DNA of 64,000 bases from Fictibacillus nanhaiensis (GTDB lineage: Bacteria; Bacillota; Bacilli; Bacillales; Fictibacillaceae), in the NCBI GenBank assembly GCA_016401345.1, contig JAEACG010000003.1:372001-436000 (forward strand), read 5' to 3'. The notes below the pieces were generated by a model, which was not told the origin of the DNA, did not search any database, and worked only from the letters and a program-made list of their open reading frames with translations. The stretch's first letter is position 1. Each line of letters opens with the position of its first letter. Shown in pieces: positions 2,296-60,953 of the stretch. The translations under genes and the position numbers were made by a program.

Positions 2296-2512
2296 GAAAG
2301 TAGTTGCTTTCCGCTCCAGGTTGCTCGCTTTCCATGGGGCGAACGGTGAGCCTCCTGCCGCTACGCGGCATTAGGAGTCTCCACCTGACCGCTTCTAGGT
2401 TGCATCCTTGCTCCTGCGTCTAAGAGTTAATGCTCCGCAGTTAGCTTCCTCGTCGCATGCCTTGCCGAGTAGCTTCTCATGTAGTAGGCAGGCAACCTTC
2501 CTCTCCAATCAA
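2296..2512 (-). repeat. GC-rich structured repeat, copy A (diverged, reverse)
   Basis: Reverse-orientation copy of the dispersed repeat (consensus end GCGAGCACCTG..ACGG..ATCAAC read on the minus strand). The central hairpin is intact: GAGACTCCTAATGCCGC and GCGGCAGGAGGCTC pair around a GTA loop. The left arm is longer and diverged compared with other copies. It forms an inverted pair with copy B about 80 bases away. The repeats and their spacer occupy most of the gene-free stretch 2261-2990. Confidence 0.8.
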
Positions 2513-2596
2513 CATGCATGGAAGGTGAAATAAAAAATCTACTGTCCGATAGAAATGCTATTTTAAAACATTGTACTTTCATTGTCTTCTTGAATC

Positions 2597-2852
2597 TTTG
2601 ATTGGAGTGTAAGATGCGAGACTCCTACGGGACAGGTAGGAAGTCCGAAAAGTGAAAGTGGCTTGTCCAGCCCCGACAAGCAAAAGGTGAATAGACAAGG
2701 AAGGTGCTCTTTGCCTTCATGGTCTATTTAACTTTTGACCTCGAGGGGCTAGCCACTGCAACTAGACAGGTGAGACATTTAAAAGTAAAACGTACGAATG
2801 TGGCTCACCGCCTGCACCGTGGAAAGCGAGCAGCCTGGAACGGAAATCAACA
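2597..2852 (+). repeat. GC-rich structured repeat, copy B (long form)
   Basis: Forward copy, about 255 bp. It has the common left end (TTGATTGGAGTGTAAGATGC), then the extra module (about 2650-2765) with GTGGCT and AGCCAC arms and the conserved block TTTAACTTTTGACCTCGAGG. The common hairpin and right end (GGAAAGCGAGCAGCCTGG..ATCAAC) follow. The same long module is found at 20709-20961 and 48574-48825. Short open frames across it are repeat sequence read as protein. Confidence 0.9.
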
Positions 2853-2904
2853 CTTTCACAAACAACAAGGTTTACACAGATATCCTTTAAAAAAGCTATT
2901 TTAA

Positions 2905-2956
2905 AAAAGCCAACTCAAGATCTGCAGAAAAACAAATCATTAAGTCGGCTTTTTAA
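2905..2956 (-). terminator. terminator-like inverted repeat
   Basis: AAAAGCC.ACT and AGT.GGCTTTT flank a loop of about 30 bases, with T-runs on both strands. It lies just past the stop of the small zinc-ribbon gene. Confidence 0.5.
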
Positions 2957-2990
2957 CGTTTATAGTAAGAATGAATAAGTCTTATTGTTC

Positions 2991-3170
2991 TTACAGATCT
3001 AAGAGATTTTGTGGGCGTCTCGTCTTTTTAGATCCATTCACCTGATTGTTGTTTGGATTGAAGATTTCTTCAATGTATCTTTGATTCCAATCACTATTAA
3101 ATTCTTTATCAGAACAGATACAGCCACTTAGATCATATCGGAAAAGGCCACAGTGTGGGCAGTTACTCAT
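2991..3170 (-). CDS. small zinc-ribbon-like protein of unknown function
   Basis: A 59-residue protein. The start at 3170 (MSNCPHCGLF) is preferred over an in-frame upstream one because AAGGGGGG lies 5-6 bases before it. The N-terminus has CPHC and then C-x-C (CICSD), enough cysteines for one zinc site. The remainder is hydrophilic and ends in a basic tail (KKTRRPQNLLDL). No family is recognised. A bidirectional hairpin follows the stop. Confidence 0.65.
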   Translation of the reverse strand: MSNCPHCGLFRYDLSGCICSDKEFNSDWNQRYIEEIFNPNNNQVNGSKKTRRPQNLLDL

Positions 3171-3278
3171 ATTAATCCCCCCTTGAGTCAACATAACGTA
3201 TTCTATGAGCATTTAAGAGAGTTGGTAACGGCTTTCGTACAGCTTTTCCACGAAATAATAAGCTGATTTTTTATGGAG

Positions 3279-4088
3279 TTACTTGTTCATCCAATCTGGC
3301 TTATGAAACTCTTCAAAATCACTTTGTATGACCTTTTTGAACGAGCCGGATTCTACTGCATCTTTAAGATCTTTTACTAGCTGTGAATTCTTATCTTTCT
3401 CTAGTACAACGATTCGATTGATAATCTTCTCTGGAAGTTTATCTTTTACGAGTGCATCCTTTAGATCTAGACCCGATGAAATTGCAAAGTTTCCGTTTAC
3501 TGCAGCTAGATCTACCGAGTCTAGCGTTCTTGGAGTTTGAGCAGCTTCAACAGGCTGGAACTTCAAGTTCTTTGGATTTTTTGTCACATCTTTTTCTGAG
3601 ACTCTTAACGGGTTTGCTGAAGAATCGATCTCAATTAGTCCATTGTCTCTCAAAACAGTAAGCCCTCTTGCTAAATTCGTAGGATCATTGGCTAGTGAAA
3701 CCGTACTTCCAGGCTTGATCTCGTCTATAGACTTGAATTTTTTAGAATAAATACCGATTGGTGCAGTGGGTACGGTAACAACTGAAGCTAGTTTCATATC
3801 ATTCTCTTCTGAAAAAGCGTCCATGTACACTTTATGCTGAAACAGGTTTGCATCTAGCGAACCGCTCTTTAAAGAGATGTTCGGTTGTACATAATCATTA
3901 AACTCTTTCACTTCAACGCTGTATCCTTTTTTCTCTAGGTATGGCTTCACACCTTTTTCAAGCATGTCGCTGTAAGGCACAGTTGCGCCGAGCGTGATCT
4001 CTTTACTTTCTTTTTCACCTGAAGCGCTACATCCCGCTAAAACGCCGATTAATAAAGCTGCTGTAAGAAATATGTTAGATCGTTTCAT
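3279..4088 (-). CDS. metQ: MetQ/NlpA-family substrate-binding lipoprotein
   Basis: A 269-residue lipoprotein. The start at 4088 (MKRSNIFLTAALL) follows AGGAGAG; an upstream in-frame GTG would place that ribosome site inside the gene. The signal peptide ends in the lipobox LAGC, with Cys20 as the lipidation site. The mature part matches the MetQ/NlpA fold (LGATVPYSDMLE..., NDPTNLARGL, VDLAAVNGNFA), which binds methionine or related sulfur compounds for an ABC importer. No metN or metI partner is present in the window, so it must use a transporter encoded elsewhere. It lies 28 bases downstream of the flavin monooxygenase on the same SAM-riboswitch-controlled transcript. Confidence 0.88.
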   Translation of the reverse strand: MKRSNIFLTAALLIGVLAGCSASGEKESKEITLGATVPYSDMLEKGVKPYLEKKGYSVEVKEFNDYVQPNISLKSGSLDANLFQHKVYMDAFSEENDMKLASVVTVPTAPIGIYSKKFKSIDEIKPGSTVSLANDPTNLARGLTVLRDNGLIEIDSSANPLRVSEKDVTKNPKNLKFQPVEAAQTPRTLDSVDLAAVNGNFAISSGLDLKDALVKDKLPEKIINRIVVLEKDKNSQLVKDLKDAVESGSFKKVIQSDFEEFHKPDWMNK

Positions 4089-4116
4089 ATGTTTTCTCTC
4101 CTCACTCACTCTCTAT

Positions 4117-5508: not shown

Positions 5509-5552
5509 AATAATTTCCTCCATCCGATTTTTTGTACCCGCTCCAAGAGAAA

Positions 5553-5585
5553 ATAAAAAAACCTCTTCAGTGATGAGAAGAGGTT
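5553..5585 (-). terminator. expression-platform terminator of the minus-strand SAM riboswitch
   Basis: AACCTCTTC and GAGAAGAGGTT pair, followed on the minus strand by a T-run. The hairpin sits between the aptamer and the monooxygenase gene. Confidence 0.85.
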
Positions 5586-5621
5586 AAAAAATACGTGAAA
5601 TAAACATACGTATATAAATTT

Positions 5622-5723
5622 CCTCTTATCTTTCAAGCTTTCGCCTGCTGGAATTGGCACAGTCCTAAAAATAGTTGTTGCCGAGGCTTCAAAGGGCCAG
5701 TCCCTCCACCTCTCTCGATAAGG
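5622..5723 (-). promoter_or_regulatory. SAM (S-box) riboswitch controlling the monooxygenase-metQ operon
   Basis: Read on the minus strand: TTATCGAGAGAGGTGGAGGG, then ACTGGCCC, GAAGCC.CGGCAAC, a variable arm, GTGCCAATTCCAGCAG, and a closing GATAAGAGG. These are the conserved S-box P1-P4 elements in the right order. A transcription terminator (5553-5585) follows. By the known mechanism, SAM binding lets the terminator form, so the operon is expressed when methionine/SAM is low. Confidence 0.95.
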
Positions 5724-5750
5724 AATCGATATTATTCAATTTAGTTACGA

Positions 5751-5779
5751 AATATACAGGAATAAAAATAGACTGTCAA
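5751..5779 (-). promoter_or_regulatory. SigA-type promoter for the minus-strand SAM-riboswitch transcript
   Basis: On the minus strand a perfect TTGACA (complement of 5774-5779) is followed after 17 bases by TATATT (complement of 5751-5756), about 30 bases before the S-box aptamer. Confidence 0.8.
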
Positions 5780-5825
5780 TGGAATTTAGAGAAATAAAAT
5801 AATTTTCTTAACAATCAGTTTTTAG

Positions 5826-5855: not shown

Positions 5856-5876
5856 GATGACTAATAATTAAATAAT

Positions 5877-5990
5877 GTATCTTATCAAGAGTCAGGGGAG
5901 GAACTGGTCCTACGATCCTGCAGCAACCGCTTTTTATAAAGAAAGGTGCTAATTCCAGCAGATGTTTTTTTGAATGTCTGATAGATGAGA
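5877..5990 (+). promoter_or_regulatory. SAM (S-box) riboswitch upstream of the acyl-CoA-dehydrogenase-like gene
   Basis: CTTATCAAGAGTCAGGGGAG, GAACTGGTCC, GATCCTGCAGCAACC, GGTGCTAATTCCAGCAG and a closing TGATAGATGAGAG match the S-box core order. The downstream hairpin at 6018-6050 is the terminator of the expression platform. It is divergent from the minus-strand S-box, so both halves of this locus respond to SAM. Confidence 0.93.
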
Positions 5991-6017
5991 GAGCGTGTAA
6001 GCATATGGAATCTACGT

Positions 6018-6050: not shown

Positions 6051-6079
6051 TTTGGTGTCCTTCGCTGTACTTGTGAGCG

Positions 6080-6206
6080 TATGATTTGCGCTGCAGGTGC
6101 TCGCTTTCCGTGGGGCAATCGGTGAGCCCCTTGCCGCTTCGCGCCCTTAAGGGTCTCACCTGACCGCTTGTCCCACAGGAGTCTCGCACCTTGCGCTCCA
6201 ATCAAC
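6080..6206 (-). repeat. GC-rich structured repeat, copy C (reverse, within a leader)
   Basis: Short-form copy in reverse orientation, lying between the riboswitch terminator and the ribosome site of the gene it controls, so it is part of the 5' untranslated region. On the minus strand CTGTGGGAC on the left arm matches GCCCCACGG on the right arm: a T-A pair where other copies have C-G or G-C. Confidence 0.9.
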
Positions 6207-6273: not shown

Positions 6274-7431
6274 ATGAGCTTACCTTTGAGAAAAGCCACT
6301 GAGATAGATCATTTTGAAGAAGCGGTTAGTACCGCTCTAGGACTAAAAGAAATTTTTAAGAAACGTGCAGATTTTGTAGATCAAGAAGGCGTTTTTCCTT
6401 ATGAGAACTTTCAAGATTTGAAGGATGCTGGCTTTCTTTCTCTTACCATTCCAAAAGAATATGGTGGTAAAGGGTTGAATCTACTTGAGTTCTTAACCAT
6501 TCAAGAGCATTTAGCCGAGGGAGATGCTCCTACTGCCCTCTCTCTTGGGTGGCATCTCGGTACTCTTTTAGAGGCGGCAGAAAATCGGCATTGGAATGGT
6601 AACTCGTTCGCTGATCTTAGCCGGAAAATTGTTGAACAAAAAGCACTCATTAACTTGGCACAAACAGAGCGTGCGACGGGAAGTCCGTCTCGAGGCGGTA
6701 TTCCTACAACAACAGCGGTCAAGAAAGCAGACGGATGGCTGATCAACGGAAGCAAAGCTTTTACTTCTATGGCAGAAGCTCTAGATTACTCAGTCATTAC
6801 GGCTACCATCTCAGAAACTAATCATAAAGGGTTTTTCTTAGTGGACCATCGGGAAAAAGGGGTTTTTGTAAAAGAAACATGGGACAGCATCTCTATGAGA
6901 GGAACAAAAAGTGATGACCTCCTTTTGAAAGACGTTTATGTACGTGAGGAAAATCTTCTAGTCGTAGAGGATGGGAAGAACCTCATACCTAAAGGCTGGT
7001 ATCTTCAGGTGCCTGCTGTGTACCTAGGTATCGCAAGAGCAGCGCGGAATTACGCGATTGAATTTGCGTCAGAGTATAGCCCTAACACTTTATCAGGACC
7101 GATCTCAGACGTACCAGAGGTGAGAAGAAAGATTGGTAAGATAGAACTTGAGCTATTCCAAGCAAGAACGATCCTTCATGCCGTTGCTGAAAAATGGGTA
7201 AACCACCCTGAACAACGTCAAAATCTAGGTACAGAACTCGCTGCCGTTAAACATTCTGTAACAAATAGTGCGAACAGGGTCGTTGATCTCGCGATGAGAA
7301 TCGTTGGGGCTCGTAGTCTTTCTGTACAAAATCCGCTTCAGCGGCATTTCCGAGATGTAAGAGCCGGCCTTCATAATCCACCAACAGATGATGCGATCGT
7401 CTATTCGTTAGCGGATGCAGCGCTTAAGTAA
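6274..7431 (+). CDS. acyl-CoA dehydrogenase-like flavoprotein (SfnB/DszC/YdbM group)
   Basis: A 385-residue protein starting at an ATG preceded by TTAGGAGGGA. It has the three-part acyl-CoA dehydrogenase architecture: N-terminal helices (DAGFLSLTIPKEYGGKGL at about 51-68), a middle beta domain (AQTERATGSPSRGG and TAVKKADGWLINGSKAFTS around 127-168), and a C-terminal helical domain with the ARSL...RHFRDVRAGLHNPP signature. The SfnB/DszC branch uses reduced flavin to oxidise sulfones or thiophenes rather than to dehydrogenate acyl-CoA. The SAM riboswitch leader and the divergent monooxygenase favour an organosulfur role. B. subtilis YdbM is the nearest counterpart I can name from memory. The substrate is unknown. 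Confidence 0.85.
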   Translation: MSLPLRKATEIDHFEEAVSTALGLKEIFKKRADFVDQEGVFPYENFQDLKDAGFLSLTIPKEYGGKGLNLLEFLTIQEHLAEGDAPTALSLGWHLGTLLEAAENRHWNGNSFADLSRKIVEQKALINLAQTERATGSPSRGGIPTTTAVKKADGWLINGSKAFTSMAEALDYSVITATISETNHKGFFLVDHREKGVFVKETWDSISMRGTKSDDLLLKDVYVREENLLVVEDGKNLIPKGWYLQVPAVYLGIARAARNYAIEFASEYSPNTLSGPISDVPEVRRKIGKIELELFQARTILHAVAEKWVNHPEQRQNLGTELAAVKHSVTNSANRVVDLAMRIVGARSLSVQNPLQRHFRDVRAGLHNPPTDDAIVYSLADAALK

Positions 7432-11859: not shown

Positions 11860-11990
11860 GTTGGTTGGAGCGTAAGATGCGAGACTCCTGCGGGATCAGT
11901 GGGACAGTTGAGACTCCTAACAGCGCAAAGCGCTAGGAGGCTCAACGCACACCCCGCGGAAAGCGAGCGATCTGAAGTGGAAACCAACCA
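11860..11990 (+). repeat. GC-rich structured repeat, copy D (short form)
   Basis: Forward copy. Left end GTTGGTTGGAGCG and right end AAACCAAC co-vary with the usual GTTGATT/AATCAAC pair. The central hairpin GTTGAG.CTCCTA / TAGGAG.CTCAAC likewise co-varies with the usual GTGAG/CTCAC. It lies between the VOC terminator and the response regulator gene. Confidence 0.92.
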
Positions 11991-20708: not shown

Positions 20709-20961
20709 GTTGATTTCCGTTTCAGGTGCTCGCTTTCCGGGGGATGTGCGATGAGCCATCTCGACGCTTTGCGCCCTGAGCTGTCTCATCTGTCTAGTTG
20801 CAGTGGCTAGCCCCTCGAGGTCAAAAGTTAAATGGCTAAGAAGGCAAAGTGCGCCTTCAAACCCATTCATCTTTTGCTTGTCGGGGCTGAACAAGCCACC
20901 TCCACTTTTCGAACTGTCCCGCTGATCCCCCAGGAGTCTCCCACCTTCCACTCCAATCAAC
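20709..20961 (-). repeat. GC-rich structured repeat, copy E (long form, reverse)
   Basis: Reverse long-form copy containing the extra module, with the block TTTAACTTTTGACCTCGAGG on the minus strand. The left arm CTGGGGGAT pairs with right arm TCCCCCGG, the G-C version of the co-varying pair. It fills the gene-free stretch between the CMD terminator and the secreted protein gene. Confidence 0.92.
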
Positions 20962-41031: not shown

Positions 41032-41119
41032 TATGGAATCAACCATTAGATTTTTCTTAAATGGTAGGGGTATTTGTATTTCTTATCTTTTGTCTTTTAT
41101 TTTCATTCTTCACCGTCAA

Positions 41120-41248
41120 GTTGATTGAAGTGTAAGGTGCGAGACTCCTGCGGGACAGGTGGGCAGGTGAGACACTTATACGTGAAACGTACGAATGTGG
41201 CTCACCGCCTGCCCCGCGGAAAGCGAGCAACCTGAAACAGAAATCAAC
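41120..41248 (+). repeat. GC-rich structured repeat, copy F (short form)
   Basis: Forward copy: GTTGATTGAAGTG at the left, ATCAAC at the right. Arms CTGCGGGAC and GCCCCGCGG pair (C-G version). The central hairpin is GTGAG.CACTT / AATGTG.CTCAC topped by an ACGT-rich loop. It lies between the htrA terminator and the DnaA-box cluster. Confidence 0.93.
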
Positions 41249-41281
41249 TCACTCCCAAAAGACACCTTAGCACCAACAAAC

Positions 41282-41313
41282 AAAAAAACAGGAGACCCTA
41301 AAGCCCCCTGTTC
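41282..41313 (-). terminator. intrinsic terminator of the walRK-htrA operon
   Basis: On the minus strand ACAGGGGGC and GTCTCCTGT pair imperfectly, followed by seven T. Confidence 0.75.
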
Positions 41314-41319
41314 CCACTT

Positions 41320-42528
41320 TTATTGAGATTGATTACCACCGCTCAATTCAACTTTCACGGTCTTCTTCTTCCCATCACGATAGAACGTCACATCCACCTC
41401 ATCACCAATCTTCGCTTTTGTATAAAGGAACTTACGAAGTGCGATTGGGTCTTTGATCTTCTCTCCACCCATCTCGACAATAACGTCCATTTCCTTAATA
41501 CCTGCACGCGCTGCTGGTGAAGCTGACGTGATCTCCATAACAACGACACCTTCTTGCACGCTGTTTGGAATCTTCAGTGTCTGCTCACGTTGATACGTGT
41601 TCACTTGAGAAAGCGGAATGATGTTAACGCCTAAGAACGGTCTGCGTGTCTCACCATATTTCTCAAGGTCTTCGATGATCGGTTTTGCTACATCAGATGG
41701 AATAGCGAATCCGATTCCTTCTACTTCGTTCTGCGCGATTTTAGAAGAGTTGATCCCTATCACCTGACCGGAGATATTAATTAAAGCACCTCCGCTGTTA
41801 CCGGGATTGATCGCTGCATCCGTTTGAATAACTTCAGCTTGCCAATCTGGGTTTCCGTCTTGATCCAGATCAACGGGAATCGAACGGTCCGCACTTGATA
41901 CGATACCTTGTGTAACAGATCCAGGAAAGTTTCCTAGCGGGTTACCGATTGCGATTGCCGGTTCACCACGTTTTAAGTCACCTGACACGCCAAATTCCGC
42001 TACACTGTCCACTTTGCTGCCATCGATTTCAACAACAGCTAAGTCCATGAGAGGATCTGTTCCACGTAAAGTACCTTTAAGCTTCGTGCCGTTGCTAAGC
42101 GTGATTTCAATCTGGTTTGCGTCCGCAACAACGTGATCATTCGTTACCACATACGCCTTATTACCTTCTTTCTTATAAATAACACCTGATCCTGTGCCCG
42201 CTGGCTGCTGGCTCCAAAAATCAGTCTGCTGAATGTTGATAACTTCCACTACCGCTCCAGATGCTTTATCAACCGCATCCGTTACATTCGTAGTGAAATC
42301 GACATCCACTTTTCGCTGTTCCACATTTTCGTCAGTACCTAACCCATTTTCCTCTTCGTTCGGAGGATACAGATTATCTGGTAAAAGACCAGCTCCTCCT
42401 AGTGCAGGTACTGTAAATAAGACAAGCAAGCCGCCTAGAATAGCTCCTAGCAACGCTGGTAGAAACTTTCCTCCGCGGTTTCCTTTTTGTCGAGATGGTG
42501 ATTCATAATCATCATCGTAATAGCCCAT
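41320..42528 (-). CDS. htrC: HtrA-family membrane-anchored serine protease
   Basis: A 402-residue protein from the ATG at 42528 (GGTGAGGAG upstream). After a charged N-terminus (DDDYESPSRQKGNRGGK) one membrane segment (about 23-45) anchors it outside the membrane. The trypsin-like domain has the triad His in VVTNDHVV, Asp in MDLAVVEI and Ser in NPGNSGGAL. A C-terminal PDZ domain follows (PFLGVNIIPL ... AGIKEMDVIVEMGGEKI). It acts in surface protein quality control. It is the last gene of the walRKHIJ cluster (YyxA/HtrC position), with about 150 bases before it that may hold its own promoter. Confidence 0.93.
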   Translation of the reverse strand: MGYYDDDYESPSRQKGNRGGKFLPALLGAILGGLLVLFTVPALGGAGLLPDNLYPPNEEENGLGTDENVEQRKVDVDFTTNVTDAVDKASGAVVEVINIQQTDFWSQQPAGTGSGVIYKKEGNKAYVVTNDHVVADANQIEITLSNGTKLKGTLRGTDPLMDLAVVEIDGSKVDSVAEFGVSGDLKRGEPAIAIGNPLGNFPGSVTQGIVSSADRSIPVDLDQDGNPDWQAEVIQTDAAINPGNSGGALINISGQVIGINSSKIAQNEVEGIGFAIPSDVAKPIIEDLEKYGETRRPFLGVNIIPLSQVNTYQREQTLKIPNSVQEGVVVMEITSASPAARAGIKEMDVIVEMGGEKIKDPIALRKFLYTKAKIGDEVDVTFYRDGKKKTVKVELSGGNQSQ

Positions 42529-42684
42529 ATGCTCCTCACCGTTCCTTTCAACAATAAAATGGATGAATTCATAACCTAGTATAAGCAATTAGTCCTGAAA
42601 TTATGGACATTTTGGGTTATTTTTCATAATTTCCCACACTTATTGTTATTTCCGGAAACGGCTTACTTTAAACAAGTAAGTATT

Positions 42685-43482
42685 TTAGACTAAAGCCAAT
42701 TTTGTTGGCTGACTCGCATCTGTATCGTGAAGGATCACTTGTTCACCCGCTGAAATATCATACGTTTTTAACGTCTGCTCCACGGCTAAACGAGCAATAT
42801 CCTTCATGTTGTTGTCTTTACTTAAGTGAGCAAGGTAGATATGTTTTGTACCGTCACCGATTACATCAGCGAGAGCATGTCCACAATCTTCGTTCGAAAT
42901 GTGACCATGGTCCCCTAAAATACGGCGTTTAATGTTCCACGGATAACGTCCCATCATGAGCATGTTGATGTCATGGTTCGATTCGATCACGAGCGAGTGG
43001 CTGTCACGAATGATACCTTTCATACGATCGCTCACATAGCCCGTATCCGTCATGAGCGCAAGCTTTCTTCCGTTGTGATGAAACACGTAAAACATTGGCT
43101 CTGCCGCATCATGTGACACGCCAAAGGATTCAACTTCTAAATCGTTGAACGTTTTCACACTTTCCATCTCAAACTCAAACTTTTGCTCGGTCGCCACTTC
43201 ACCAATCAAACCGTTCATGGCATTCCACGTATTTTTGTTCGCATAGATCGGCAGCTTAAATTTTCGAGCCAGCACACCGAGTCCCTTTATGTGATCGCTA
43301 TGTTCATGAGTGACGAGGATTCCATCAATGTCAGCCACCTCACCGCATGCTGCTTTTTCGAATAATATTTGAATCTGTTTGGCACTTAAGCCCGCATCCA
43401 CGAGCAAGCGTGTTTGTTCGGTTTCAACGTAAACAGCGTTTCCCGAACTGCCGCTTGCAAGAACGCTAAATTTTAAACTCAT
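42685..43482 (-). CDS. walJ: WalJ/YycJ metallo-beta-lactamase-fold hydrolase
   Basis: A 265-residue metallohydrolase. The metal motif is VTHEHSDH, with further ligands in MTDTGYVSD and [11 protein letters not shown]-terminal [15 protein letters not shown] is characteristic. YycJ proteins have been linked to DNA maintenance and to coordinating cell wall and division signals. The gene follows walI after 16 bases within the wal operon. Confidence 0.93.
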
Positions 43483-43498
43483 AACCGCATGTTCCTCT

Positions 43499-44338
43499 CT
43501 ACTCTGCCTTTTCCGTCAAAACTTGAATGGAACTGTCAGTTGCATTAACTAAATACTGTCCGTCCTTGGTTTCTATGAACCATGTAGGTGTATAAACCTG
43601 AACTTCCCCTTCACCTACAAGGCTATAGTGGCCAAGCTCCACTTTTTGTATATGATCACCTTTTTGAAGGTTTGTTTCTAATAGTTTCTCAAGTGCTTTG
43701 CTAGGTGAGATGATTTGTTGAAAAGCTCCTTGTCTCGTAATAAAAAGATAAGTTTGCGTAAAACTTGTAAGGTTTCCTTTATCATCAAGCGTGAACTTGA
43801 TCATTCCGTTCGGAACATCGTAATCTTTTGCATCCGCAACAATACCAAAATTAGTAGGGTTATAGAAGACCTTTTTCTCTTGGTAGACCTGCGTAAACCA
43901 GACGATGTTACTCTCTTTATCCCATTCGTAAAAAGCGTATTCTTTACCGCGTGAGATGTTTTCTTCTGCAAATTGATTAAGCTCTGAGATCAAATCTTTT
44001 GAATCCTTTTTCGGAAGATCCATCGGTTTACTAAGATCATAGTGAAGGGTGATGTCTGTGCTAGCTTCCTTATCCAGCGATACATTTTTTGCAGGGGATT
44101 TCTTCTCATCTTCAGAAAACTTGTAACGCTGAGCACTGATCAAGGTTTGTTTTTCTTTATATCTCGGCAACTTTTCTGAAAGTGAAATTTCGTTATTCGC
44201 CAAACGCTCTTCTAGAGGCTGATCAGTAAGTCTTGAGATGTTGTTAATGTCGTTCTTTTGATAGAGCTGATACCCCAAAAATAGATTTAAGATAAGAAAG
44301 GTAAGGATAAAAATGCTTTTTGTTCTTTGCCAATTCAA
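43499..44338 (-). CDS. walI: WalI/YycI regulatory membrane protein
   Basis: A 279-residue protein with one N-terminal membrane segment ([19 protein letters not shown]) and an extracytoplasmic YycI domain containing PepSY-like repeats. In known systems WalI and WalH together hold the WalK kinase in check through membrane contacts. Its ATG starts immediately after the walH stop. Confidence 0.92.
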
Positions 44339-45742
44339 TTAATATCCTTCCTTTCCCGTCTCTGTAAATAATGGCTGCCATCCTTTAGCATCATAGTTAA
44401 TAAACCATTGCGGCTCTAGCTTATATACGTGAGGTTCTTTTTGTTTTTTCATCGTAAATCCAATACGAACATCTTGAACATAGTTCTTGTTGTAATCTTT
44501 TTCTTCGAGCTCTTTCTTAACTTCTAATCCTGACTGAATGTTGACTTTCTGTGAGAGATAAGACTTTTGGTCGAGTTGTAACTGAACGAGTGAGCGCTGA
44601 TATTCCTTAAGCTCATTTTCATACCACACTAGGCTCATCTGCATCTCCGGATCCAACACAGGCAAATTCTCAACAAATAGCCAGAAGTTTGCTGAGTACG
44701 TTGATAGAGCGGAAAGGATATACGGGTTTCCCCACCCTGCGTGCGTATTGATATAGTCTAAGGATTGATAGAGTGGTGAAATGTTTGGTGTTGTATTTGG
44801 ATTCCGATTTCCCGCAAAGTTTGTAAACGCGAAACGATTTTGCACCTCATTTACAACCATTGCAGCTGTTCCATCAGCATACGTGATCTGATTTTTATCA
44901 GAAGCACTTTTTACGGCTAACGGATCTTTGAACAGCGCTTTTTTATACATTTCATACGTATCCTCACCTGTTGCTTTTGAAAGGTACGTATAGCGAGTTA
45001 AGGCTAGCGAGTCTTTAGGAAAATAGAATCTTCTAAGGATCTCTGCTTGTCCTTCTTTCCCGTCATCCTCAATATCATGCTGGATATAAGGAATTAAATT
45101 CCCCGTATCGACCCACTTATCCATATCTCTTATTAATGGATTTAGCTGGTTATTTGTTGCCCTAATCTTTTGCATCTTTTTATTTTGATAAGATACAAGA
45201 TAGCCTTCAATACTATCTGTCATTTTATCTTGGTATAAGAAGATTCGATCAACATTTTGTGGTTTAGTAGCTTGTATCTCGGATTCAAACGAGAAGATCT
45301 CTTTGTATATATCCTGACTCATACCTACTGGAAAAATAATCTCCACGTACTTGTTGTCTCGTAGGAATTTTTCATCTGGATCGAAAGCTCGATTATTTTT
45401 TGAACCTGTATCAAACGTAAATTTCGTTTCGTTCAAGCCCATATGAAACTCTTTCAATAAGTTGTTCGCTTCAAGTCCGTATAAATCATCTCCACTGTGA
45501 TAGATCACTTGTGTAGGATAGACGAGTTGTTTCACGCCGGCTTCAATATCTACTTCTTGCTTCTTAACGATACGAGCTCCTTCAAGTGATGGATAGCTTG
45601 GCTTGAATGTCCACAAGCTCCATGTAAGGACAAGGCTCATGCCGATCAAGACAGTGAGCGCGATAGACTTAATATGTTCGTAATTCTTCTTGAAAAAGGT
45701 GATCACTTCTTTTGCATGTGTAATCCACTTTAACCAGTTCAT
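44339..45742 (-). CDS. walH: WalH/YycH regulatory membrane protein
   Basis: A 467-residue protein with one membrane segment at about 24-42 and a large external YycH domain (PSLEGARIVKKQEVDIEAGVKQLVYPTQVIYH ... TPNISPLYQSLDYINTHAGWGNPYILSAL). The start overlaps the walK stop by four bases (ATGA), so translation is coupled. It acts with WalI as a negative regulator of WalK. Confidence 0.93.
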   Translation of the reverse strand: MNWLKWITHAKEVITFFKKNYEHIKSIALTVLIGMSLVLTWSLWTFKPSYPSLEGARIVKKQEVDIEAGVKQLVYPTQVIYHSGDDLYGLEANNLLKEFHMGLNETKFTFDTGSKNNRAFDPDEKFLRDNKYVEIIFPVGMSQDIYKEIFSFESEIQATKPQNVDRIFLYQDKMTDSIEGYLVSYQNKKMQKIRATNNQLNPLIRDMDKWVDTGNLIPYIQHDIEDDGKEGQAEILRRFYFPKDSLALTRYTYLSKATGEDTYEMYKKALFKDPLAVKSASDKNQITYADGTAAMVVNEVQNRFAFTNFAGNRNPNTTPNISPLYQSLDYINTHAGWGNPYILSALSTYSANFWLFVENLPVLDPEMQMSLVWYENELKEYQRSLVQLQLDQKSYLSQKVNIQSGLEVKKELEEKDYNKNYVQDVRIGFTMKKQKEPHVYKLEPQWFINYDAKGWQPLFTETGKEGY

Positions 45743-47571
45743 TGCAGCCCCTCCTTAACCTTTTTTAAAGGAAGAGTAAAGTGGATGGTCGTTCCTTGGC
45801 CCCATTCACTTTCTGCCCAGATGTCTCCGCCATGCGCAAGTACGATCTCTTTTGCAATCGCAAGACCTAGGCCAGTGCCTCCGATATCTCGAGAACGAGC
45901 ACGGTCTACCCTAAAGAAACGATCAAAGATCTTAGAAACGTTGTTCTTCGGAATTCCAACGCCTTGATCTGAGATACTTACCTTCACTTTGCGTCCGATA
46001 ACAGCCGCTGTAAAGGTAATCGTTCCACCTTCAGGAGAATACTTCATCGCGTTCGAGATGATGTTATCAAGCACTTGTGTCATCTTATCGGTATCCAGCT
46101 GAACATTGATCTTATGCGTTGGCAACGAGCGAGATAATTCAATGTTTTCTTTTTCAAGCATCTCAAAGCGATCGATGATGCCGTTTAAGAACTCGACAAG
46201 ATCAATCTCAAAAAAGTTAAATCGATAATCTTTGCTGTCCATCTTGGATAATTGAAGGAGATCCGTTACGAGCCTTATCATTCGTTCTGTCTCATTCTGA
46301 GTAACCTCTAAGAAACGCGGAGCGATGTTCTCGTCCTGCCACGCCCCTTCAGCCAACGCCTCTAGATAACTTCTCATCGTCGTCAGTGGTGTTCTAAGCT
46401 CATGTGAAACGTTGAATACAAACTCTCTTCGTTCGTTATCGATCTGTTCTTGCTCTGTAACATCATGAAGAACACAAATAAGACCATTGATTGGCCCGTC
46501 ATCTTTTTGTATCGTCGAGAAGTTTGCTCGCACCACATAATGCATATCGTCCGTACTAAAATCGAGCAGCATGGATTCATATTCGTTATAAAGCTCTTCC
46601 CACGTGTATTCCGTATTTAAGCGCAATAGCTCCATAAGAGGCGTGCCTAGCGCGTTCTGCCTGGAGATGTTCAGCATCTCTTCAGAACGGTCGTTCATGA
46701 GGATGATTGCTCCGTCACGATCTGTTGCGATCACACCATCTGTCATATACGTCAGAACGGAACGCAGCTTTCTACGCTCACTCTCTGTAATAGCTGTTGC
46801 TTCTTGCAGCTTTGTTGTTAAGTTGTTAAAGGTCATAGCGAGCTGACCGATCTCATCATCTCCATACAGCTGAACTTTACGAGAAAAGTCTCCTCTCGCC
46901 ATAACAAGAGCTTGCTTTCTCATATCTGCCATAGGCCGTGTGATCGTACGCGCCAAAAAGACACCTAGAAGCCCTGTAATAATAAGAGCGATTACGGTTC
47001 CGGTCACTAGAATGCTATTGATACGAGAGATTTGTTTAAAGATACCTTCAATAGAAGCGACTAAATAGATAGCACCAATGTTCTCACCGGTAGCATCAAT
47101 TTTGATCGGTTTTGCGAGCACCATGACCCGCTCGCCTTCATGAAGCATGATCTCATCATCGACCGTTCCTTCAAGAGCAAGCTTGATCTTCGGGTTGAAG
47201 CTGATCTGCCCCACTAACTGCCGTTTATTGCTCGCAAGTACCATGCCATCTTCATTAAGTACTTGAATCTCTTTCTCTTCAAATTCCTCGTCAATTAACG
47301 CTTGAATATCATCTTCAAGCGTTATCGGATCTTCACCATCGTCAGTCTTTTTATCTTTGTACCGATCTTTGTCTTTCATCTTTTGCTCAACGTTAAACTC
47401 TAATAAATTCACCCTATCGTAAAGTGATTTAGAGAAGCTCTGCCGAAGATCAGATTCTAAGTTGTTGATAAAATAAACGCTGATCACTTGCATGGCTATT
47501 AAAATGAGCAATACATAAATCAATACAAACTTAACGTGTATTGATTTAAAAAAATTGACTTTATCCATCAT
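45739..47571 (-). CDS. walK: WalK sensor histidine kinase
   Basis: A 610-residue kinase controlling cell wall turnover. Order of parts: membrane segment about 12-32, external PAS-like sensor (about 35-180), second segment about 183-205, HAMP (ARTITRPMADMRKQALVMARGDF), cytoplasmic PAS (about 265-370), phosphoacceptor NVSHELRTPLTTMRSYLEAL, then the ATPase with N, G1 (DQGVGIP), F and G2 (GTGLGLAI) boxes. It may start at the second Met. The gene lies 2 bases after walR. Confidence 0.97.
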   Translation of the reverse strand: MMDKVNFFKSIHVKFVLIYVLLILIAMQVISVYFINNLESDLRQSFSKSLYDRVNLLEFNVEQKMKDKDRYKDKKTDDGEDPITLEDDIQALIDEEFEEKEIQVLNEDGMVLASNKRQLVGQISFNPKIKLALEGTVDDEIMLHEGERVMVLAKPIKIDATGENIGAIYLVASIEGIFKQISRINSILVTGTVIALIITGLLGVFLARTITRPMADMRKQALVMARGDFSRKVQLYGDDEIGQLAMTFNNLTTKLQEATAITESERRKLRSVLTYMTDGVIATDRDGAIILMNDRSEEMLNISRQNALGTPLMELLRLNTEYTWEELYNEYESMLLDFSTDDMHYVVRANFSTIQKDDGPINGLICVLHDVTEQEQIDNERREFVFNVSHELRTPLTTMRSYLEALAEGAWQDENIAPRFLEVTQNETERMIRLVTDLLQLSKMDSKDYRFNFFEIDLVEFLNGIIDRFEMLEKENIELSRSLPTHKINVQLDTDKMTQVLDNIISNAMKYSPEGGTITFTAAVIGRKVKVSISDQGVGIPKNNVSKIFDRFFRVDRARSRDIGGTGLGLAIAKEIVLAHGGDIWAESEWGQGTTIHFTLPLKKVKEGLQ

Positions 47572-47573
47572 GA

Positions 47574-48278
47574 CTACTCCTGATCAGGATTTCTTAAGTA
47601 ATACCCCACTCCGCGTCTTGTAATGATCCATAATGGGTGACTTGGGTTATCTTCAACTTTTTCGCGCAGACGACGAACCGTTACATCGACCGTTCTTACA
47701 TCACCAAAGTAGTCGTATCCCCATACGGTTTGGAGTAAGTGTTCACGCGTCATCACTTGTCCGATATGTTTTGCTAAATAATGCAGCAGTTCAAATTCAC
47801 GATGTGTTAACTCGATCGTTTCGCCACGTTTGGTCACGATATAAGCATCAGGATGAATCGTGAGAGAACCGATCGTGATCTCATTGTTCTCGTCTACTTC
47901 ACGCTCTGATTCCTGCTGATGACGGCGCAGGTTAGCCTTAACACGTGCAATTAATTCACGCGTGCTGAACGGCTTCGTCACGTAATCATCGGCCCCAAGC
48001 TCTAAACCTAATACTTTATCAATTTCAGAGTCTTTTGCTGTAAGCATGATGATCGGCATATCGTACTTTTTACGGATCTCACGGCATACTTCCATACCGT
48101 CTTTTAGTGGAAGCATGATATCTAGTAAAATCATATCCGGCTTCTCTTTTTCTACCTTTTCTAACGCATTAATGCCATCATATGCGCAACTTACAGTAAA
48201 ACCTTCTTTTTCAAGATTAAACTGCAGAATATCTGCAATGGGTTTTTCATCATCCACAACGAGAATTTTCTTATCCAT
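47574..48278 (-). CDS. walR: WalR response regulator
   Basis: A 234-residue OmpR-type regulator, essential in relatives, for autolysin and wall-metabolism genes. The receiver has DDE near residue 10, phosphoacceptor in [13 protein letters not shown] (about D53) and Lys in VTKPFS. The winged helix contains [19 protein letters not shown] and [17 protein letters not shown], nearly identical to other WalR proteins. It is first in its operon. Confidence 0.97.
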
Positions 48279-48502
48279 GAGAACGCTCCTTCTTCGGAAA
48301 CTCTATTTTATATATAGCAGAATATTTTGTAGTATCGATTATATGGTATCTCTACTATTTTATCACAGTTGAAACTTTCTCCATACTACTAGCAAAACCT
48401 TCTAATTTTTGACAAAGAAAAGTTGGTATCACATAAAATCGCCCTCGAAAGTTCGCTGTGTGAAATACATCCGGAAAGTAATTCATTTCGTTTTGAGCAT
48501 GA

Positions 48503-48541
48503 AAAACCTCCCAGGAAGCTGTTACTCCTAAGAGGTTTTTG
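48503..48541. terminator. bidirectional terminator-like hairpin upstream of walR
   Basis: AAACCTC and GAGGTTT enclose an inner AGGA/TCCT pair, with T-runs on both strands. It can end transcripts from the M23 peptidase gene after they read through the repeat at 48574-48825. The remaining stretch 48279-48502 contains the walR promoter region; I see no gene. Confidence 0.6.
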
Positions 48542-48573
48542 ACATTTTGTTTATTACTTTTCATCAATGAATA

Positions 48574-48825
48574 GTTGATTGGAGTGAAAGGTGCGAGACT
48601 CCTGCGGGACAAGCGGGCAGTCCGAAGAGTGAAGTGGCTCGTTCAGATCCGACAAGCAAAAGATGAATGGATTAGAAGGCGCACTTTGCCTTCTGAGCCA
48701 TTTAACTTTTGACCTCGAGGGTCTAGCCACTGCAACTTGACAGGTGAGACCCTTAAGGGCGCGAAGCGGCAAGGGGCTCACCGCCTGCCCCGCGGAAAGC
48801 GAGCAACCTGTAACGGAAATCAACC
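48574..48825 (+). repeat. GC-rich structured repeat, copy G (long form)
   Basis: Forward long-form copy. It carries the extra module (about 48621-48737) with the AGAAGGCGCACTTTGCCTTCT palindrome and the TTTAACTTTTGACCTCGAGG block. The central hairpin GTGAG.CCCTT / AAGGG.CTCAC is identical to copy C. It begins 13 bases from the stop of the M23 peptidase gene, so it lies inside that gene's 3' untranslated region. Confidence 0.93.
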
Positions 48826-48838
48826 ATCTTTCATAACT

Positions 48839-50299
48839 TTAATTTTTACTTATATAATGTGCTGGATCCTTCAGAACACCGTTCTCATAGACTTCAAAAT
48901 GCAAATGAACACCAGTCGATTGACCTGTTGTACCCATCACACCAATCTTTGATCCTTTCTGCACAACATCACCTGTTGTAACAGACATCGAATCAAGATG
49001 CGCATAAATGGTTCTCATGCCATTGTTGTGATCAATAATAATCTTGTTTCCATAATCTCCATCCCACCCAGCAGAAACAACTTTACCGTTGTCTGCAGCT
49101 AAGATCGAACGTTCTGAAGGTCGAGCAATATCCATTCCTTTATGCTCTTTACCCCAGCGCGTGCCTTTATGGCTAGAAATATATCCACCTACAGCTGGCC
49201 ATGAAAGAGTGCCTGTCCCTTTAGAAGGAATCACTTTCGTACCAATCTTTTGAATTTCTGTAACCGGAGTCTTCACTTGCTTTTTCTCTAAAATTTCTTT
49301 TTGTAGCACTTTGTTATCAGCTTTTCTTGTTGTATACGTAATATCTTCTAAGCCAACTTGTCCTTTTTGAACGGTTTTAACCTGTCCTTTTTCCAACGTA
49401 CTATCTTCTTGCTTCTCAACCTGGAAAGGAAGTTCATTCTGAACACGTGTTGCTTCGTACACAAGGACCTCGGTATAAGGCTCTTTTTCAGTAACGGTTA
49501 CTGCCTGTCCTGTACGAACAACGGGTACTAACATAAGCCTTGGGTTTAACGTGAATAACTGTTCCATCGTTAAGTGATATTTTTCTAGGATAGATTGAAC
49601 CGTTTCTCCTTTTTGTACCATATGCTCTTTTTTGTTCAGACTGCCTTCTTTCAAAGAAGAAATGGCATCATCTACCGTAACGAGCTTACTAATAGATGTT
49701 TGCGCTTTTTGAATAAGAACTGGCGCTGAAAAGTCGATATCAACCACTTTACGTTCTCCCGGTTCTAAGTCCGGTACTTCAAGCTTTTCGTTCTCAGCTT
49801 TCTTTTTTTCGATGTCATCTAGCTCGGCTTTTGAAACATGTTCGAGCTTTAGCTTCAGCAACGTATCTTTTGCTTCTTTTTTGCTAGAAACATACGCAAC
49901 AGTTTGTCCGCCAACGACTAAACGATAAGCCTCAACTTCAACCGTTAGCTGCTTCTTCAAGTTCTCTCTTACTTCTTCGTTATCAAACTCTGGTCTGAAC
50001 ATCTTTTCAGGCTTAAGCTCGATAGACTCTCTCACCGCAAAAGCAAAGTTATTCTTTCTACCTTTTGCCTGTTGGAGAATTTGGTCAACTGTCTCGTCAA
50101 CAATACTCTCTTCACGAACCGTTCCAACCTTCCTTCCATCTACATAAACGTGATAAACCGTCTTGATCAACTGGTTATCGTCGCTACTCGCAGATGTACT
50201 TGATGGATTCATCGTGAATGCTGACACTATTAAAATCACTGCGACAAACGACAGTGCGATATATTTAATAAATCTTTCAGTGGTTTTTCGACTGTTCAC
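48839..50299 (-). CDS. LysM-G5-M23 cell-wall metallopeptidase
   Basis: A 486-residue protein starting at GTG after AGGGGGAAA. Parts in order: membrane anchor or signal (about 12-35), a charged helical region, LysM (MVQKGETVQSILEKYHLTMEQLFTLNP, about 225-270), G5 domain (about 275-355) and a C-terminal M23 peptidase (about 365-484) with HKGMDIARPSERS, zinc ligands in GMDI and VHLHFEVYENG. It is predicted to cut peptidoglycan cross-links. It lies immediately upstream of walR on the same strand, and a WalR box precedes it, so it is probably a WalR-regulated autolysin. Confidence 0.9.
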   Translation of the reverse strand: MNSRKTTERFIKYIALSFVAVILIVSAFTMNPSSTSASSDDNQLIKTVYHVYVDGRKVGTVREESIVDETVDQILQQAKGRKNNFAFAVRESIELKPEKMFRPEFDNEEVRENLKKQLTVEVEAYRLVVGGQTVAYVSSKKEAKDTLLKLKLEHVSKAELDDIEKKKAENEKLEVPDLEPGERKVVDIDFSAPVLIQKAQTSISKLVTVDDAISSLKEGSLNKKEHMVQKGETVQSILEKYHLTMEQLFTLNPRLMLVPVVRTGQAVTVTEKEPYTEVLVYEATRVQNELPFQVEKQEDSTLEKGQVKTVQKGQVGLEDITYTTRKADNKVLQKEILEKKQVKTPVTEIQKIGTKVIPSKGTGTLSWPAVGGYISSHKGTRWGKEHKGMDIARPSERSILAADNGKVVSAGWDGDYGNKIIIDHNNGMRTIYAHLDSMSVTTGDVVQKGSKIGVMGTTGQSTGVHLHFEVYENGVLKDPAHYISKN

Positions 50300-55458: not shown

Positions 55459-55588
55459 AGATTGATCGGAGTGTAAGATGCGAGACTCCTGGGGGATCAG
55501 CGGGGCAGGTGAGACTCTTAACAGCGCTATGCGCTAAGAGACTCACCGCACGCCCCCCGGAAAGCGAGCATCTGAAACGGAGATCAAC
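55459..55588 (+). repeat. GC-rich structured repeat, copy H (short form)
   Basis: Forward copy. Ends TTGATC/GATCAA and stems AGATGC/GCATCT both co-vary relative to other copies. Arms CTGGGGGAT and GCCCCCCGG carry the G-C version of the variable pair. The central hairpin is GTGAG.CTCTTA / TAAGAG.CTCAC. It lies between the rplI terminator and the helicase gene start. Confidence 0.93.
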
Positions 55589-55602
55589 GCTTTCTTGGCC
55601 CG

Positions 55603-58043: not shown

Positions 58044-58054
58044 ACTTTCAGCTC

Positions 58055-58999: not shown

Positions 59000-59377
59000 G
59001 ATTCACCTCATAAAATTCTTCATATGTTCTAATTGTAGTGACATAACCGCTGTAATTCAACTTAAACGATAATTCTAGCATAGACGTACTTGAAGAGAAG
59101 TAAACAAATTATGGAAGGTTTGCTTGAGCTGGGTCAGAAATAGGTGATATTCACGTGTTTTCATGGAAATGATGTGTGAAAATGTTATGAGATGGTGTGG
59201 GAATCTACTACGATGGTTCAATAGAGGCTGATTCGGCCATTTCACTGCCGTTTTTTCATATGTGAAGATGAGGAATCCTAAAGTTTTAGCGGTTTATCCA
59301 CGAGTTTTAGGCTTTTATCCACGAGTCTACAATCCTCGACAAAAGTCGACGCCCTACTGCTACCTTTTAATCACAAA
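59000..59377. other. gene-free interval with tandem 21-bp DnaA-box-like repeats
   Basis: GTTTATCCACGAGTTTTAGG and a shifted TTTATCCACGAG recur 21 bases apart (boxes at about 59291 and 59312). Each contains TTATCCACG, one base from a DnaA box. The rest holds the yybS promoter region; no gene is credible. Confidence 0.45.
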
Positions 59378-59411
59378 AAAACGCAGCCAGGAAACCCAGC
59401 TGCGTTCTTTA
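59378..59411 (-). terminator. intrinsic terminator of the rpsF-ssb-rpsR operon
   Basis: On the minus strand AACGCAGCTGGG and CCTGGCTGCGTT pair imperfectly and are followed by seven T. Confidence 0.85.
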
Positions 59412-59418
59412 AACGTTC

Positions 59419-59652
59419 TTATTCAGATACATATGGTAACAATGCCATGTGACGAGAGCGTTTGATCGCACGAGTCAATTGACGTTGATATTTAGCAGAT
59501 GTACCAGTTACACGACGAGGAAGAATCTTACCGCGCTCAGAAACGAAACGCTTTAAAAGATCAGTGTCCTTGTAGTCGATGTAAGTGATTTTGTTTACAG
59601 TGAAGAAACAAACCTTACGACGCTTTTGGCGTCCACCACGACGTCCAGCCAT
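59419..59652 (-). CDS. rpsR: 30S ribosomal protein S18
   Basis: A 77-residue basic protein with the S18 core [57 protein letters not shown]. It is last in the rpsF-ssb-rpsR operon. Confidence 0.98.
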
Positions 59653-59709
59653 AGTTGGTCCCCTCCTTTAGTTTTATTTTATATATTCCGATTCATAGTT
59701 TACGTTAGT

Positions 59710-60255
59710 TTAAAATGGCAAATCGTCATCAGAGATGTCGATCGGGGTGCCATCATTTGCAAACGGGTCATCGTTGAAGTTATTACGTTTTGGATTCTGC
59801 TGTTGTTGCTGTCCTCCAAAGCCGTTGTCACTTCCATAGCTGCGGTTCTGATTTTGCTGCCCAAATCCGCGGTCATTTGATGGTCCACCAAAGTTGTTGC
59901 TGTTGCCTTGATATTGCTGGCCTCCAGCATTAGCGTTTTTAGGTTCAAGGAATTGAACACTTTCTGCCATTACTTCAGTAACATACACTCTTTGACCCTG
60001 CTGGTTCTCGTAAGAACGAGTTTGCAAACGTCCATCCACTCCTGCAAGCGATCCCTTTTTCAAGAAGTTCGCTACATTTTCAGCGGGCTTACGCCATACG
60101 ACACAGTTAATGAAATCTGCTTCGCGCTCACCTTGCTGATTCGAAAAAGGTCGATTGACAGCAAGTGTGAAGTTAGCAACTGCCACACCGTTTGGAGTGT
60201 ACTTTAATTCTGGGTCTTTTGTTAAACGTCCCACCAGTACTACTCGATTTAGCAT
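59710..60255 (-). CDS. ssb: single-stranded DNA-binding protein
   Basis: A 181-residue protein: an OB-fold domain (about 1-105, [72 protein letters not shown]), a Gly/Gln/Asn-rich disordered linker (about 115-165), and the acidic C-terminal tip DISDDDLPF that recruits replication proteins. Placed between rpsF and rpsR as in B. subtilis ssbA. Confidence 0.98.
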
Positions 60256-60276
60256 TCAGAACCACTCCTTAAAGGA

Positions 60277-60567
60277 TTAATTTCTTTCGTCTACGATTGT
60301 CATGAAACGAAGAACATCTTCGTTGATCTTCATAAGACGGTCGAATTCATTAATCGCTTCGTTTGGAGCGTTAACTTCCAATAGCGTGTAATATCCATCG
60401 CGGAAGTCATTGATTTCGTAAGCTAAACGCTTTTTACCCATTTCCTTTTCGTTCGCGATCTCCGCACCGTTGTCAGTTAGGATGCTTTTCGCACGCTCTT
60501 TCGTTGCCTTAAGAGCTTCCTCTTCGATATTCGGACGGACGATGTACATAATTTCGTACTTTTTCAT
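60277..60567 (-). CDS. rpsF: 30S ribosomal protein S6
   Basis: A 96-residue protein. The ATG at 60567 follows a perfect AGGAGGTGA; a longer open frame upstream is untranslated leader. [38 protein letters not shown] and [11 protein letters not shown] define S6. First gene of the rpsF-ssb-rpsR operon. Confidence 0.97.
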
Positions 60568-60640
60568 TCCGTTCACCTCCTTTTGGTCTAAGCGGCCCAA
60601 AAACAAATATTTAAGGGCAAGGAGAAAATCATCATAACAG
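60568..60640 (-). promoter_or_regulatory. possible S6:S18-binding leader of rpsF
   Basis: On the minus strand GCCC and GGGC enclose an A/T-rich loop and are followed by CCGC, just before the ribosome site. Many bacteria have an autoregulatory S6:S18 RNA with a CCG element in this place. The similarity is limited to stem, CCG and position. Confidence 0.3.
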
Positions 60641-60720
60641 TATTTGTTGACAATTAACTCACAATAAAGAATTATATCAAAACATCTTCCATAAAACAAG
60701 CACCTCTTAAAAGAAAGCAT

Positions 60721-60757
60721 AAAAAAGAGGAAAAGCGATTGCTTTTCCTTCGTTTTT
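60721..60757. terminator. bidirectional terminator downstream of ychF
   Basis: GGAAAAGC and GCTTTTCC pair around GATT, with T-runs on both strands. It lies about 215 bases past the ychF stop, beyond repeat copy I. Confidence 0.8.
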
Positions 60758-60824
60758 CTAGATTACTCGGGCTGTATTCTTTAAATTGCTCTGAGATTAG
60801 TGTTGTAAAAAACTTCACTGACAA

Positions 60825-60953
60825 GTTGATTGAAGTGGAAGGTGCGAGACTCCTGGGGGATCAGCGGGACAGGTGAGCCACCTAACAGCGCAAAGCGCTA
60901 GGTGGCTCACCGCACGCCCCCCGGAAAGCGAAGCACCTGCAACGTAAATCAAC
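60825..60953 (+). repeat. GC-rich structured repeat, copy I (short form)
   Basis: Forward copy with ends GTTGATT/AAATCAAC, AGGTGC/GCACCT, arms CTGGGGGAT/GCCCCCCGG and the perfect central hairpin GTGAGCCACCTA / TAGGTGGCTCAC. It sits 17 bases from the ychF stop, before that gene's terminator, so it is transcribed in the ychF 3' region. Confidence 0.94.

Follow-up and report, generated by a model that had tools for sequence, protein, structure and literature searches.

A family of GC-rich, folded repeats occupies nine places in a stretch of 64,000 nucleotides (nt) from the genome of Fictibacillus nanhaiensis, and these repeats are very probably old members of a family of miniature inverted-repeat transposable elements (MITEs) that was mobilised in trans by transposases of the IS1595 family. 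The stretch, which we refer to as the window, covers positions 372001 to 436000 of contig C20 in a genome of 4.28 Mb (G000). The degree of confidence applies to the MITE and IS1595 part of the interpretation and not to the role of the conserved interior of the repeats, here called the core. The original prediction had described nine structured copies in the window, and the repeat was identified at all nine sites, with lengths of 127 to 256 nt and with no transposase inside the repeats. However, only the inner core of about 130 nt had been recognised, and the outer arms and the far larger copy number were missed. As reconstructed here, a full element consists of an AT-rich target duplication of 8 base pairs (bp), a left arm, a spacer of about 17 to 40 nt, the GC-rich folded core of about 130 nt (GTTGATT...AATCAAC), a shorter spacer, a right arm, and the second copy of the duplication, with about 220 to 245 nt between the two duplications.

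The outer arms were identified in other genera, where a second inverted repeat flanks the cores at a distance of about 17 to 40 nt on the left side and, in most cases, 6 to 22 nt on the right side. The arms follow the pattern GGCT[C/G]TTTTC...TTGTTG, with the left arm reading GGCT[C/G]TTTTC..AAA..TTGTTG. With the threshold set at the highest value seen in 388 shuffled controls, both arms were detected in 44 of the 113 copies from the named genomes, in 2 of the 35 copies from relatives, and in 5 of the 46 sampled entries from the window's own genome, 2 of which represent the same place. A total of 65 arm pairs was found, of which 50 enclosed core-bearing units of 214 to 246 nt (2 of the 50 being one place). 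Seven pairs were dropped because of their length, a poor anchor, or the edge of a locus, and among the 58 that were tested, exact 8-bp duplications anchored on GGCT...AGCC were found in 28 elements, compared with a mean of 0.73 and a maximum of 5 in 100 permutations. For length 8, 25 offsets were tried, and this is the highest count among them; the best count for length 9 was 1.

The genome of a Peribacillus strain (G110) contained 10 copies of a 244 to 245-nt unit, judged by eye to be near-identical, which were located at different sites and had sharp ends. Exact 8-bp duplications flanked 8 of these units, and the other 2 matched at 7 of 8 bases. The 10 units were selected from 15 core matches in the stretches, with the exclusion of 2 truncated at the end of a contig and 3 that were divergent or partial. 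Furthermore, one copy in the window's own genome (L003) had two arms and an exact 8-bp duplication. The family thus has the characteristics by which MITEs are recognised, in that its members are short, transposase-less, and dispersed, with terminal inverted repeats and duplications of a fixed 8 bp, the latter two of which were not seen for the window copies.

The partner elements were traced through an arm pair in G110 with the arms 1133 bp apart, which encloses a broken transposase gene. Searched separately, the pieces of this gene matched the IS1/IS1595 zinc-binding domain with 29.7 bits (cut-off 28), scored 22.3 bits against the IS1595 transposase model, which is under the cut-off of 75, and gave no Pfam match above the cut-offs. 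A tblastn search retrieved genes on plasmids whose annotation names them as transposases of the IS1595 family; three of the four best records were shared with the 15 records of the arm search, and the fourth with the full-unit matches. In two plasmids of Niallia sp. Man26 (L247 and L248), intact IS1595-family transposases were located between the same arms with exact 8-bp duplications, and scored 180.8 and 206.6 bits, respectively, against the model NF033547 (cut-off 75). Further IS1595-family elements with the same arms and exact duplications, among them L249, L257, L264, and L271, were found in Cytobacillus solani, P. simplex (G041), M. litoralis (G042), and Niallia sp. NCCP-28 (G055), some of them partial or with stops, and 7 of 8 bases were duplicated in the Priestia flexa element and the broken G110 copy (L250 and L232). 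The element L254 in G055 shared both its arms and its flanking octamer with L248. Members of the IS1595 family are described as generating 8-bp duplications and, in most groups, as encoding an N-terminal zinc finger (PMC8101967), and A/T-rich 8-bp repeats are described for ISApl4 (PMC12561309). Since the same arms and duplications bound insertion sequences of the IS1595 family, we interpret the repeats as IS1595-type MITEs.

Between the arms of the two Niallia plasmid elements, we also noted a second gene (L248:1223-2991 and L247:1290-2979; annotated as a DinB family protein and a hypothetical protein). In the Fictibacillus relative G015 (C1:2319024-2319648; L255 and L268), a match to the IS1595 transposase contained an internal stop, with no arms nearby. 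An inspection by eye of arm-pair spacing in two genomes revealed no autonomous element among the matches listed, and such an element was found in another genome. ISL3 was also considered as a mobiliser, on the basis of 8-bp AT-rich duplications and GG ends, which we take to be features of that family, and was rejected: PF01610 was present in 2 of the 13 genomes, no arms were found around the loci fetched from those two, and a DNA search for ISL3 on plasmids was empty.

The elements that share these arms differ in what lies between them. L233 (75 nt) and L234 (70 nt) contain little beyond the two arms, and each has an exact 8-bp duplication. In Metabacillus litoralis, there are at least 41 almost complete copies of another element, 162 nt long, which shares these arms but has an unrelated, AT-rich interior (e.g. 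L133:2115-2276). Between the arms of the insertion sequence copies examined, the core was not found; the core matches in L263 and L270 lie outside an arm, in an apparent neighbouring element, and L266 contains a partial core with no arm. Because the arms-only elements have duplications without a core, the core seems unnecessary for mobility, and it seems that the arms are sufficient as a substrate, with the core as a passenger. The presence of the core in 50 of the 65 arm pairs could be taken to mean that it is a cis-acting part of the transposition system, such as a transposase-binding or replication hairpin, but the arms-only elements, the other interior of the M. litoralis family, and the insertion sequences in which no core was found make this very unlikely. 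The original prediction was to be abandoned if the ends of a known insertion sequence fully explained the pattern. Such ends do explain the dispersal of the repeats, but not the structure of the core, since the core was not found in the insertion sequence copies and the arms-only elements carry duplications without it.

To follow the repeats at fixed sites, we compared six of the window sites (2296, 2597, and 20709 were left out) with four relatives in 22 comparisons. The outer stems were 92.5% identical, compared with 82.5% in the flanks of ±60 nt and 82.4% in the interior; the far flanks, part of which is coding sequence, reached 91.3%. The interiors change as blocks; at site 41120, the relatives G004 and G015 have a different apical hairpin from that in the window. 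The element at 11860 was missing in two of the four relatives. We also examined whether each copy was closer to a paralogue or to its orthologue, with 44 core entries from its own genome, including some duplicates; 4 of the 18 pairs were dropped for lack of a full-length core. In 10 of the 14 remaining pairs, in one case because of a deletion, the copy was closer to an own-genome paralogue than to its orthologue, despite flanks that were 90% to 97% identical. The simplest reading of this exchange of interiors would be recombination or conversion between copies.

Several observations weigh against the interpretation of the window copies as IS1595-type MITEs. None of the nine had two arms above the shuffled controls, and three had one marginal arm side each, which was matched by 1 of 60 shuffles. 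Because no window copy has two arms, the tie of the nine copies to IS1595 derives from their membership in the core family. A number of the insertion sequences are incomplete or contain stops, and the gene tables of the P. flexa and C. solani records list no transposase. A match to NF033547 was obtained in only 10 of the 22 genomes searched, 7 of which were above the cut-off, and there was none in the element-rich M. bambusae and FJAT-14578. Read in the fixed frame, the one M. litoralis 162-nt copy that was tested agreed at 4 of the 8 flanking bases, and it fits only if the right end is read one base further. At the orthologous sites, 2 of the 22 comparisons fall where the relative has no element, the near flanks differ too at 6080, and the exchange between copies would be hard to tell from repeated insertion or from exchange between species. 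Finally, the evidence for mobility consists of footprints in the sequences, and transposition itself was not observed. NF033547 also gave no match in the window's own genome, and this, together with the lack of a two-armed copy, is the reason why we regard the window copies as old insertions.

In the scenario that we favour, of a MITE family mobilised in trans, the transposase would bind the arms and excise or copy the unit, which would then be pasted into AT-rich, mostly intergenic DNA. In the genome of the window, the arms of the nine copies have decayed and the cores persist at their sites, where the interiors would be exchanged, most simply by recombination or conversion. The core would be a passenger that is maintained as a structure. 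In the weakest step of the scenario, the most likely reason for its maintenance would be that a compact hairpin makes the insertion tolerable in a transcribed spacer or has an effect at the RNA level.

The covariation of the core is real. The variable pair in the arms, for which compensatory changes had been predicted, was C-G in 9, G-C in 5, and U-A in 1 of 15 aligned copies, and the alignment also showed the joint changes in the end pair GATT/GGTT, in the stem GGTGC/GATGC, and in the apical pairs. Two larger alignments were analysed, one with 67 distinct Fictibacillus copies (A4) and one with 84 distinct copies (A3) taken from other genomes, which include further Fictibacillus. In A4, 96.7% of the cells were paired as compared to 90.5% after shuffling, there were 182 double-changed cells versus 47.9, and the pairing fell to 38% to 45% if the partners were slid by 1 to 3 columns. 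The corresponding values for A3 were 93.5% versus 86.8% paired and 223 versus 44.8 double-changed cells. These counts are biased towards structure, since the copies in both sets were aligned to the model and those in A3 had been retrieved on the basis of a perfect match to a portion of the 5' arm.

Because repeat copies share kinship, a tree-based null was built with a script of our own that resembles R-scape but is not R-scape. At E<0.05, 4 of the 45 pairs in A3 and 8 of the 45 pairs in A4 were above the background. No non-structure pair passed its own threshold (0 of 8083 and 0 of 7956), for which the correction is so stringent that a pair can pass only by exceeding all of the null values. 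Structure pairs made up 14 and 8 of the 30 top-scoring column pairs in the two alignments, which exceeds the share of the structure among the columns; the remaining top pairs reflect other linkage, probably due to subfamilies.

Helix 4, which contains a U.G wobble and the internal loop GAGACUC/AAAGCGA, was almost constant, and the wobble was present in 67 of the 67 copies in A4 and 80 of the 84 copies in A3. We also counted transitions by events in the two alignments: those leading to G.U versus A.C numbered 127:99 and 88:59 at paired columns, and 36:50 and 37:35 at unpaired columns. In raw cells, A4 contained 112 G.U versus 10 A.C, with 63 of the 112 coming from three columns. A3 contained 65 G.U versus 86 A.C, with 54 of the 86 coming from one badly aligned apical column, and 65 versus 32 without that column. 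Part of the asymmetry is common to the unpaired columns. The excess by events at paired columns gives a weak hint that the RNA of one strand matters, and RNA-level selection on the core is weakly suggested.

The compensatory changes could alternatively have arisen by quasi-palindrome correction, that is, by template switching in the hairpin at replication with no structural selection. The unit is a long near-palindrome, and its two sides change jointly within copies, in agreement with such a process. However, correction is expected to erase mismatches, and both the U.G pair and the loop persist; a self-correcting palindrome is not expected to keep the wobble, which therefore supports a maintained structure. 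The intermediates in A4 were also mostly G.U, although this asymmetry is partly shared by unpaired columns. On balance, we consider it unlikely that correction explains the changes. The original prediction had inferred a selected RNA or cruciform structure, and a maintained structure is indeed supported by the covariation and by the retained wobble, but the core is the interior of a MITE rather than a free-standing RNA family.

To examine the possible role of the core, we classified its genomic contexts. Among 166 copies, 3 either lay within an open frame or had no assignable place, 12 were far from genes, and the remaining 151 tracked the background of intergenic types. An orientation bias relative to the neighbouring genes, which seemed present in the window by eye, was not clear over the 92 tandem contexts (50 sense, 42 antisense). 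In one complete element, neither a promoter nor a terminator consensus was found. The resemblance of the core to a stretch of the 16S rRNA, which we take to be a primer site, was also rejected, since dinucleotide shuffles were as good in 23 of 300 and 187 of 300 cases.

It is possible, though we hold it only tentatively, that the core has been domesticated in Bacillaceae as a functional structured RNA or as a cis-acting mRNA hairpin, for which the arms provided only the first spread. The Fictibacillus cores outlast their arms, with outer stems that are better conserved than the adjacent flanks, the covariation exceeds the tree-based null, the wobble is nearly invariant, and the excess of G.U-giving over A.C-giving transitions is larger at paired than at unpaired columns. 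Against this stand the lack of a clear orientation bias, the complete element with neither promoter nor terminator consensus, the interiors that differ or are deleted at orthologous sites, the weak strand signal with a reversed raw count in A3, and the lack of an Rfam match; gene conversion alone could also keep the cores similar. In a similarly tentative scenario, a conserved core that transposition does not require may have ridden in on IS1595-type arms, reached most of the sampled genomes of the order, and been kept by selection at the level of structure, with well over a hundred loci in a genome such as this one serving as functional RNA or single-stranded DNA hairpins, the variants of which are swapped between sites.

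The features of the nine window copies, here interpreted as old IS1595-type MITEs, are listed in the table below. There were five short forms of about 130 nt and three long forms, each of which consists of the core and a palindromic insert of about 120 nt at one internal place.

Table. Repeat copies in the window, numbered from its first nucleotide
Position	Strand	Feature	Sites in relatives
2296..2512	-	Rearranged core, chimeric interior	Shorter versions at the same site
2597..2852	+	Long-form core, insert at ~2641-2766	Short form in G004
6080..6206	-	Short-form core between SAM riboswitch (5879-5991, +) and gene 6274-7431 (+)	
11860..11990	+	Short-form core	Present in G003 (extra module) and G013; G004 and G015 without it at the syntenic place
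20709..20961	-	Long-form core, ~120-nt insert at ~20793-20915	
41120..41248	+	Short-form core	Four relatives occupied at the same site, interiors differ
48574..48825	+	Long-form core, insert at ~48620-48737	Short form at this site in four relatives
55459..55588	+	Short-form core	G003 without the apical hairpin at this site
60825..60953	+	Short-form core between ribosomal protein S6 gene (60277-60720, -) and YchF-type GTPase gene (60971-62068, -)	

The inserts in the long cores are modules, which the original prediction had missed. The same palindromic module, at the same fixed internal position, was also observed in L030:17158-17546. A second module, identified by eye, is a hairpin of about 60 nt within a conserved TCCT internal loop, and was present in L235, L236, L237, L238, L150, and L030, as well as in G003 at the 11860 site. 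Three of the nine window copies were folded singly. The prediction that the copies fold onto themselves held for 41120 and 48574, which folded far better than shuffled sequences (z scores of -6.25 and -6.86, respectively), but not for the rearranged copy at 2296-2512, which folded no better than shuffles (z score of -0.64; 52 of 200 shuffles as good). Near the 6080 copy, we noted two SAM riboswitches on opposite strands (5623-5724, -; 5879-5991, +), ahead of diverging genes, with the repeat located behind the second.

The window contains a small fraction of the copies in the genome. With the best 150 of 1061 candidates scored, at least 147 core matches were identified, with long copies appearing as part matches, and by simple arithmetic, cores of about 130 nt would make up at least about 0.45% of the sequence. 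In a survey of the order, taken as Bacillales, in which the best 13 candidates per genome were scored, at least 189 of the 249 sampled genomes had a match at E<=1e-6, representing 81 of the 103 genera. In a class-wide sample, 59 of 249 genomes had a match, and these included several families outside the order. A pattern scan of named genomes gave, among the matches listed, Fictibacillus, Peribacillus, Cytobacillus, Neobacillus, Metabacillus, Gottfriedia, Halobacillus, Niallia, Lederbergia, Mesobacillus, Heyndrickxia, Rossellomorea, and Bacillus. Sixteen plasmid records, mostly from Bacillaceae, partly matched a full unit. No core was found in the phage and viral collections searched, and five matches to the arm pattern in viral contigs were all without a partner arm and without a core. 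It was also noted that a contig titled Pseudomonas sp. ISL-84 (L098; JAGGRA010000050.1) has a Bacillaceae core, and the label or the assembly may be wrong.

The original prediction could attach no published name to the family, and our searches led to the same result. No core matched Rfam at the gathering score, either in the window or in 8 loci, and a lax search of 41050-48900 gave none in the cores. Words from the core sequence were in no open-access paper searched, and in the open literature searched on IS1595 with MITEs and on Bacillus repeats, nothing described the family by title or start of the abstract. Size and hairpin character are similar to those of the bcr repeats, of Rfam RNAs, and, as we take it, of REP/RAYT elements and attC sites; REP/RAYT systems combine a tagged short palindrome with a Y1 transposase. 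That the family is already known under one of these names is highly improbable in view of the lack of an Rfam match and of the differences from the bcr repeats given below.

With a presence in at least 189 of the 249 sampled genomes of one order, and with neither an Rfam match nor a located description, the family represents a large blind spot in annotation. Naming it would allow annotators to stop reading the core as a leader or terminator structure. It also raises the testable question of why a mobile element keeps a folded, covarying interior that is seemingly not needed for its transposition, for which the arms-only, core-bearing, and other-interior elements with the same arms offer a ready comparison.

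Among known systems, the insertion sequences of the IS1595 family (NF033547) share with the repeats the arm type GGCT..TTTTC..TTGTTG and the 8-bp AT-rich duplications on the copies examined here, whereas the repeats carry no transposase and have a folded core that was not found in those copies. The ends described for ISApl4, GGGGCTGTACTAGA, are unlike these arms (PMC12561309). Bhal-1 of B. halodurans is also a stem-loop repeat family of Bacillaceae, with 36 copies listed, but is 74 nt long according to its description, on which, rather than on its sequence, the comparison is based (PMC2267715). The bcr1-bcr18 repeats of the Bacillus cereus group are likewise abundant Bacillus repeats of 100 to 400 bp with signs of mobility; however, they are described as restricted to that one species group and as having a TTTAT motif (PMC6542083), whereas the family studied here has varied 8-bp duplications, GGCT arms, and many other host genera. 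The BOX and RUP elements of Streptococcus pneumoniae are described as short, non-coding, multicopy, base-paired, and MITE-like, with modular middles in BOX (PMC3049150), and differ from the present family in that the latter combines IS1595-type arms with a single conserved, GC-rich, covarying core in most sampled genomes of an order.

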